A DNA stretch of 64,000 bases from Bacillus pumilus (lineage in GTDB: Bacteria; Bacillota; Bacilli; Bacillales; Bacillaceae). Positions 21,666-54,418 of the stretch are shown here, one piece after another. The notes below the pieces were generated by a model. It searched no databases. It was not told the DNA's origin and was given only the letters and a program-made list of their open reading frames with translations. The stretch is from the NCBI RefSeq assembly GCF_038738535.1, contig NZ_CP046128.1, positions 1,054,001-1,118,000 of the forward strand, read 5' to 3'. The translations under genes and the position numbers were made by a program. Numbering within the stretch: position 1 is the first letter of the stretch; every line of letters begins with the position of its first letter.

Positions 21666-22514
21666 ATGAGACCAGGTGAGCAACTGACCTTGCAAATAGA
21701 GAACGAGATGGAATACGGCTACTTTTTGACAGATGGTGAAGATTCGGTCCTCTTGCACCGCAGTGAGATGACAGAGGATATTGGTGACCGAGATGAAGTA
21801 GAGGTCTACTTATATGTAGATCATGAAGAAAGACTGGCTGCCACGATGAAAATACCTACAATCAATGCGCATACATATGGCTGGGTAGAAGTCGTAGACG
21901 TGGTAGAAGACATGGGCGCATTTGTCGATGTCGGGCTGTCAAAGGATGCACTTGTTGCAATAGAACACCTCCCGCCTTTTGAGGAAGCATGGCCAAAAAA
22001 AGGAGACAAACTCTACTGTATGCTGAAAGTCACAAGCTACGGCAGAATGTTCGCAAAGCCAGCCACTGAAGATGTGATCAGTGAATTGTTTACTGAGGCA
22101 CCTGAAACCTTAATGAACAAAGAAATCACTGGAACCATTTATCGCTTAATTGCGACAGGCTCTTTTATGCTGACAGATACAGGCGTGCGAGGGTTTATCC
22201 ACCGCACGGAACGAAAGGAAGAACCAAGATTAGGATCGACCGTGACAGGACGCGTCATTGCCGTGAAAGAGGATGGAACCGTGAACGTTTCTCTGCTTCC
22301 TAGAAAACAGGAAGCGTTATCTGTCGATGCAGAAGAAATCTTAACCTATATGAGAACGAGAAATGGTGCCATGCCTTATGGGGACAAAAGTGATCCAGAA
22401 GACATCCGCGAACGATTCCAAATGAGCAAGGCAGCCTTTAAACGAGCATTAGGCCATTTGATGAAAAATGACTTAGTTTACCAAAAAGAGGGCTGGACAT
22501 ACGAGAAAAAATGA
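21666..22514 (+). CDS. yitL: S1-domain RNA-binding protein YitL (CvfB family)
   Basis: A 282-residue protein of the CvfB family: three S1-like OB domains (about 1-65, 68-140 and 145-215) and a winged-helix C-terminus (about 225-280, GDKSDPEDIRERFQMSKAAFKRAL). CvfB in Staphylococcus binds RNA and affects virulence gene expression; the B. subtilis role is little known. Position next to yitK, divergent, matches yitK-yitL. The ATG follows AGGAAGGAAGAGAAC. Its stop lies directly before a structured element with a terminator hairpin. Confidence 0.88.
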   Translation: MRPGEQLTLQIENEMEYGYFLTDGEDSVLLHRSEMTEDIGDRDEVEVYLYVDHEERLAATMKIPTINAHTYGWVEVVDVVEDMGAFVDVGLSKDALVAIEHLPPFEEAWPKKGDKLYCMLKVTSYGRMFAKPATEDVISELFTEAPETLMNKEITGTIYRLIATGSFMLTDTGVRGFIHRTERKEEPRLGSTVTGRVIAVKEDGTVNVSLLPRKQEALSVDAEEILTYMRTRNGAMPYGDKSDPEDIRERFQMSKAAFKRALGHLMKNDLVYQKEGWTYEKK

Positions 22515-22515
22515 G

Positions 22516-22607
22516 CAGCGTGAAATCCAAACCCTGACTTCAAGGGTTTTCATATCACACTGAAATGAAGACAAAGGGATAAAATCATCATGATTTTATC
22601 CCTTTTT
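22516..22607 (+). repeat. Structured RNA-like element, short copy, ending in a terminator
   Basis: Three nested parts are visible. The outer stem CAGCGTGA (22516-22523) faces TCACACTG (22555-22562) with one C-A mismatch. The inner stem AAACCCT (22529-22535) pairs with AGGGTTT (22543-22549). Then comes a terminator AGGGATAAAAT / ATTTTATCCCT with a T run (22575-22607). The block from AAGGGTTT to the terminator is about 80 percent identical to 54313-54376. It follows yitL by two bases and would at least end yitL transcription. Confidence 0.7.
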
Positions 22608-22628
22608 TTATATTTGTTATAAATAATG

Positions 22629-43645: not shown

Positions 43646-43678
43646 TAAAAAAACCCCCTGTGGCTGCAGGGGGTTTTA
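43646..43678 (+). terminator. Terminator after the MFS transporter gene
   Basis: AAAACCCCCTG pairs with CAGGGGGTTTT around a six-base loop. Confidence 0.88.
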
Positions 43679-43695
43679 GCGTACCGCTTTTCAAT

Positions 43696-43738
43696 CAAAA
43701 AGAAAAAGAGCTAAAATCAACATCATTTTAGCTCTTCC
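43696..43738 (-). terminator. Terminator of yjzD
   Basis: On the minus strand AGAGCTAAAAT pairs with ATTTTAGCTCT around a seven-base loop, followed by TTTTCTTTTT. The stem resembles the terminator stems of the structured elements at 22516 and 54225, but no other part of those elements is present. Confidence 0.8.
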
Positions 43739-43759
43739 TCAGCAATCAAGTCTTACGTA

Positions 43760-54202: not shown

Positions 54203-54225
54203 GAAGGGGAGGGTTCTCCCCTTTC
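54203..54225 (+). terminator. Hairpin right after appA (attenuation or mRNA protection)
   Basis: GAAGGGGA faces TCTCCCCTTTC, giving a stable stem 13 bases after the appA stop, with only a short T run. It may let more AppA than AppBC be made. Confidence 0.55.
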
Positions 54226-54376
54226 AGTGTGAAGACAAACCTTTCTATTCGGTGTCAGTCCGGCGCGCTGGTGCTCACGGTGATTTCATTCACCAAGCAC
54301 CAGTTAGATTTAAAGGGTTCTCATATCACGCTGCAAAGAAGACAGAGGGCTAAAATAAAGACTATTTTAGCCCTTT
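54225..54376 (+). repeat. Structured RNA-like element, long copy, between appA and appB
   Basis: Outer stem CAGTGTGA (54225-54232) with TCACGCTG (54326-54333, one G-U pair). Inner stem AAACCTTT (54237-54244) with AAAGGGTT (54312-54319). An insert hairpin CTGGTGCT...GGTGA / TCACC...AGCACCAG lies inside (54268-54303). A terminator AGGGCTAAAAT / ATTTTAGCCCT with a T run follows (54346-54376). The last part is about 80 percent identical to 22542-22607, and the terminator stem differs by a compensatory C-G for A-T change. It lies within the operon, so it would attenuate appBC. Confidence 0.7.
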
Positions 54377-54418
54377 TTCATCACAGTATGGCGATCCGAT
54401 GAAAAAGGAGTTGTGCAT

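Follow-up and report, generated by a model that had tools for sequence, protein, structure and literature searches.

Bacillus subtilis carries a dispersed repeat of roughly 190 bases, similar in length to the repeat of about 175 bp analyzed here and found in the same genus. With respect to target choice, the closest described systems are the staphylococcal elements IS1272 and TnSha1, which belong to the IS1182 family and insert at hairpins, often those of transcription terminators (PMC4923244, PMC5678879). Their targets share no primary sequence, and one hairpin can take repeated insertions. Both elements carry a transposase gene, and both have been reported to remove their target hairpin or take its place, with no duplication of it (PMC4923244). 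In the model proposed for IS1272, a transposase of the IS1182 family acts on the feet of cruciform hairpins; the hairpin is replaced when the 3' feet are attacked and duplicated when the 5' feet are, and stem-loop duplication is drawn as one alternative outcome (path 6b) (PMC5678879). Comparable small elements are MITEs, such as a set described in archaea, which are short, multicopy and non-coding, and for which similarity to the autonomous partner is usually confined to terminal repeats, in segments under 20 nt (PMC3852290).

The window, the whole stretch of 64,000 nucleotides of Bacillus pumilus DNA that was analyzed, contains copies of a repeat that combines features of both. Like MITEs, it is short, multicopy, non-coding and similar to its putative autonomous partner only in the terminal repeats, but it differs from MITEs in general in targeting terminators and in having a built-in, covarying terminator. 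Unlike IS1272 and TnSha1, it spans about 175 bp, too short to encode a transposase, comes with a terminator of its own and is associated with duplication of the whole hairpin. Comparative analysis of the copy downstream of yitL indicates that this block is very probably a decayed copy of an IS1182-type MITE, inserted at terminator hairpins and putatively mobilized in trans.

The block downstream of yitL and its repeat family

The sequence-only reading had described an RNA-like element with two nested stems, conserved words and a terminator, all of which were found in their places within 22516-22612. The outer arms, CAGCGTGA (22516-22523) and TCACACTG (22555-22562), pair with one C-A mismatch, the inner arms are AAACCCT (22529-22535) and AGGGTTT (22543-22549), and the terminator hairpin (22573-22605) comprises 15 pairs with a T run next to it. 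The yitL stop codon falls in the 5' arm of what was the native terminator of the gene. The claim of structure beyond chance was borne out by a minimum free energy of -36.9 kcal/mol for 22512-22612 (z -7.2, with none of 200 shuffles equally low); when the terminator was left out, the folding z-score of the block was -3.6. The similarity to a second block at 54 kb, put at about 80 percent, was recovered by blastn as a gap-free match of 80.6% over 72 nt, and the double change reported between the two terminator stems (A-T in one, C-G in the other) is real.

Table 1. Features of the three repeat copies in the window and of their host sites.
Feature	Position	Strand	Evidence
yitL, 282 aa, S1-domain-like protein	21666..22514	+	ORF; weak rpsA/S1 match; orthologues found
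Leftover 5' half of native yitL terminator, GAAAAAATGAG (empty-site form GAAAAAGTGAGCATTTGCTCACTTTTTTT)	22505..22515	+	Comparison with empty sites of relatives
Eroded, internally deleted repeat core, from left end CAGCGTGA to TCACACTG	22516..22562	+	Alignment to intact copies
Conserved GAAGACA word ahead of internal terminator	22567..22573	+	Alignment
Predicted intrinsic terminator of the repeat, sole complete one now after yitL	22573..22609	+	Fold; covariance model; orthologues
Third, heavily eroded copy	43650..43750	+	Covariance-model match; sequence
Host terminator hairpin (left target copy), between appA and appB	54206..54224	+	Empty-site comparison
Core of longer copy, subtype with TCATATCAC	54225..54344	+	Sequence; alignment
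Internal terminator of longer copy; right end and right host hairpin missing	54345..54379	+	Orthologue comparison

These blocks belong to a dispersed non-coding family of about 45 members in this genome. A covariance model trained on 19 copies identified 45 places at E <= 1.2e-9, the yitL copy (84.7 bits, E 7e-18) and the 54 kb copy among them. A DNA search using the longer 54 kb copy returned 40 similar places after exclusion of palindromic echoes, and a pattern of conserved words matched 29 places, against none for a control pattern. The third copy in the window was matched by the model at G000:C1:1097677-1097737 (35.8 bits, E 2e-5), and encompasses a host hairpin (43650-43677), a relic core, an internal terminator (43706-43736) and a relic right end.

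The sequence-only reading had named further copies in related genomes as a check, and copies were present in 38 of the 44 Bacillus genomes searched. A sample of 250 genomes from the order gave strong matches (E below 1e-8) in this genus alone. G033, a close relative of B. subtilis, presented eight matches; it was considered as a stand-in for B. subtilis and set aside, because its YitF closely resembles the solved B. subtilis protein but differs from it. The phage collection yielded no match to the repeat. In the plasmid collection four records contained it, including B. subtilis plasmid CP035408. The copies in the other records, assigned outside the phylum of Bacillus to Stutzerimonas stutzeri (CP078511, CP078512) and Klebsiella variicola (CP063894), are 82-95% identical to the Bacillus repeat, and these records are probably misassigned Bacillus DNA. 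No description of the family was found in the open-access literature searched, and it may have been described elsewhere.

Intact copies present a conserved arrangement, reading host hairpin, CAGCGTGTAGACAAACCC ... GGTTTTCTATCACGCTG AAAAGAAGACAAA GGGCTAAAAT-loop-ATTTTAGCCC TTTGTCAACAATCTG, and again host hairpin with its T run, and hence contain three hairpins in series (host, own, host). The ends of the repeat are of the form CAG-nnTGTnGACAAA. The flanking hairpins are identical within a locus and different between loci. Such a duplication of the host hairpin was detected around 31 of 40 copies in this genome by raw script count (median 25 bp), or 29 of 40 under a strict count that drops L027, where the left hairpin is a match to the internal terminator, and L040, where half a hairpin is left. 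For copies from other Bacillus species the raw script count was 40 of 45, with a median of 26 bp. The duplicated stretch is palindromic and mostly has A-rich sequence on its upstream side and T-rich sequence on its downstream side, which identifies it as a rho-independent terminator. Several copies retain the host hairpin only (L016, L037, L229 and L244), and those at yitL and app retain only the internal terminator at their 3' side.

The left flanking hairpin of L027 is the internal terminator of the repeat itself, which suggests recombination between copies or insertion beside another copy. Orientation of the elements by the A/T tails of the host hairpins was tried and dropped, because the A-hairpin-T unit is identical on both strands.

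Ends, targets and IS1182-family transposons

Transposons of the IS1182 family, with DUF772 and DDE domains, were identified in 27 of the 44 genomes of the genus and in the one analyzed here. They are about 1.5 kb long, encode a DUF772/DDE transposase of 450-477 aa and have ends of the form CAG-nnTGTnGAnAAA. They are putatively placed in IS1182 by these domains and by their palindromic target. Of the copies in the genus, 17 could be dissected, among them L119 and L144 from this genome. These copies lie between palindromic duplicates of a terminator (18-31 bp), with A-rich sequence before and T-rich sequence after it.

Comparison of the ends revealed that CAGACCGTAGACAAACCC of the transposon and CAGCGTGTAGACAAACCC of the repeat are identical at 15 of 18 positions, and CAGCTTGTAGACAAAG and CAGATTGTTGACAAAG at 14 of 16. 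The CAGACCGTAGACAAACCC/CAGCTTGTAGACAAAG ends belong to a second IS1182 subfamily (L202-L207), whose transposase is 46% identical to that of the other subfamily. A search of this genome for an intact IS1182 with these best-matching, GACAAA-type ends was negative; by DUF772 score its three full copies fall in the other subfamily, and both copies that were dissected have GAGAAA ends. Intact elements of the GACAAA type turned up only elsewhere in the genus, in G021 and G022.

The Bacillus IS1182 elements (L119, L144, L203 and others) resemble the repeat in their ends, in the duplication of terminators, in their genus and in the use of yitL as a target, but have only the ends in common with it at the sequence level. 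Since ends, target and kind of duplication are all shared with IS1182, the repeat can be classed as an IS1182-type MITE. The sequence-only reading had offered a mobile intergenic repeat with its own terminator as one of two possibilities, and this is the one supported by the genus-wide copies, the target duplications, the empty sites and the IS1182-like ends. On this view, what had appeared to be a puzzling 'RNA-like' repeat would be a mobile element that follows a clear rule in choosing its targets.

These observations are compatible with a mechanism in which an IS1182-family transposase, acting in trans, would recognize the CAG-nnTGTnGACAAA ends and direct the element to rho-independent terminators, with insertion at the hairpin foot. 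The hairpin duplication observed in the sequences implies that one strand would be cut before the palindrome and the other after it, by which the whole hairpin (about 25 bp) would be duplicated and come to flank the element. Three terminators in series would result, any of which could be removed by later short deletions. The copies identified here would then represent dozens of natural whole-hairpin duplications by IS1182-type insertion, an outcome that the model for IS1272 presents as no more than an alternative.

The yitL and appA-appB sites in related genomes

The yitL site is empty in nine named relatives and many more genomes, where the native hairpin is GTGAGCATTTGCTCAC. GTGAGCATTTGCTCACTTTTTTT, or a closely similar sequence, is the native terminator in B. 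safensis, B. altitudinis, B. xiamenensis, B. pumilus, B. stratosphericus, B. australimaris and others. The short element is common to the window genome, G018, G021 and G022. Directly behind the same hairpin, an IS1182 end was identified in G043 and in G042, which matches a B. zhangzhouensis record, and the yitL terminator of G013 harbors an IS1182 remnant. The presence of the short element, of IS1182 ends and of a remnant at a single yitL hairpin indicates that this terminator has been hit several times. On the 3' side of yitL in G013 (L186), only the perfect palindrome of the IS1182 end, CAGGCTGTCGAGATTTTCTCGACAGCCTG, is visible.

Between appA and appB, the native terminator stands alone in seven relatives, and the element is present in the window genome and eight others. 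One orthologue of the 54 kb copy (L257) is complete, with both hairpins and an intact duplication. In the other copies at this site the right end and right hairpin are gone and the internal terminator is retained, and in L249 the core has also been lost, with only terminators left. The copy at 54206-54379, lying inside the app operon, supplies a second terminator between appA and appB, and this could alter the ratio of binding protein to permease.

The yitL junctions, GTGAG/CAG (ATGAG/CAG in the window) and TATCCC/TTTTTTT, with the slash marking the boundary, present no target duplication; half of the native hairpin and the entire right side of the insertion are missing. Given this lack of a duplication, the half hairpin could have been deleted in a single step, as reported for IS1272 (PMC4923244, PMC5678879). 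Under such a scenario the element would have replaced part of the hairpin directly, with no duplication at any stage, in the same manner as the IS1272 and TnSha1 members of the family delete or replace their target hairpins (PMC4923244, PMC5678879). Duplication, however, is the rule both for the repeat family and for the Bacillus IS1182 elements, and the IS1182 copies at the yitL hairpin itself leave the left hairpin whole. Furthermore, the right side of the app copy must have been lost secondarily, because the L257 orthologue keeps it. Direct replacement at yitL is therefore unlikely, and insertion with hairpin duplication, followed by deletion, is the preferred account of this site.

The hairpin of the element is predicted to be more stable than the native one at yitL (-17.3 versus -13.4 kcal/mol). 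As read from the sequence, this hairpin and the host T run constitute the sole complete predicted terminator after yitL, and its fold, position and conservation suggest that it now terminates yitL transcription. The locus provides a case in which a transposon-borne terminator has taken the place of the one native to the gene. More tentatively, and with somewhat less in favor than against, elements of this kind might turn over bacterial terminators, the transposase reading the hairpin in its extruded form and duplicating all of it, the element adding a third terminator and later deletions leaving a survivor; at genes such as yitL, the native terminator would have been exchanged in this way and its substitute then selected.

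Selection on the terminator stem

A different explanation for the block is that of a functional structured RNA, either a small RNA or a 3'-UTR element, with selected stems and copied to several loci. The strong fold is in line with this possibility, and so is the covariation of the terminator stem, where 7 of 13 pairs present double changes (26 cells) and the covariation score is 0.336, against 0.118 for shuffled controls, with none of 500 shuffles as high and with slid controls dropping off. Beyond the terminator stem, RNAalifold analysis of 66 full copies identified few convincing pairs, and two of the four orthologues of the yitL copy have a disrupted outer stem. The covariation of the terminator, the lack of convincing covariation in the remainder and the broken outer stem point to constraint on the terminator, and not on a larger RNA. 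Conservation is likewise limited to the terminator: identity among the four yitL orthologues, from four species, is 98% in the terminator, 80% in the rest of the element and 93% in the 3' flank, the corresponding values for terminator, core and flank at app are 85%, 53% and 94%, and one app orthologue lacks the core entirely. In addition, no promoter-like site was detected on the + strand between 22400 and 22760, and the Rfam search proposed in the sequence-only reading, at gathering and relaxed thresholds, matched neither the yitL nor the 54 kb block to any family. A selected, larger RNA is hence very improbable. The earlier suggestions of RNA selection and stem compensation apply to the terminator stem, and do not extend to the outer stem or to the remainder of the block, which decays faster than its flank.

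Spread by homologous recombination or gene conversion between terminators, with no transposon involved, is scarcely credible, for although palindromes readily recombine and L027 has the internal terminator as its left hairpin, the target hairpins differ by locus and are yet duplicated at the element ends each time, and those ends match the ends of IS1182.

Comparative screens of Bacillus could mistake repeats of this kind for conserved 3'-UTR RNAs. Elsewhere in the window, Rfam matches were obtained for a SAM riboswitch before a yitJ-type gene (20855-20737, - strand) and for a T-box leader (58536-58318, - strand).
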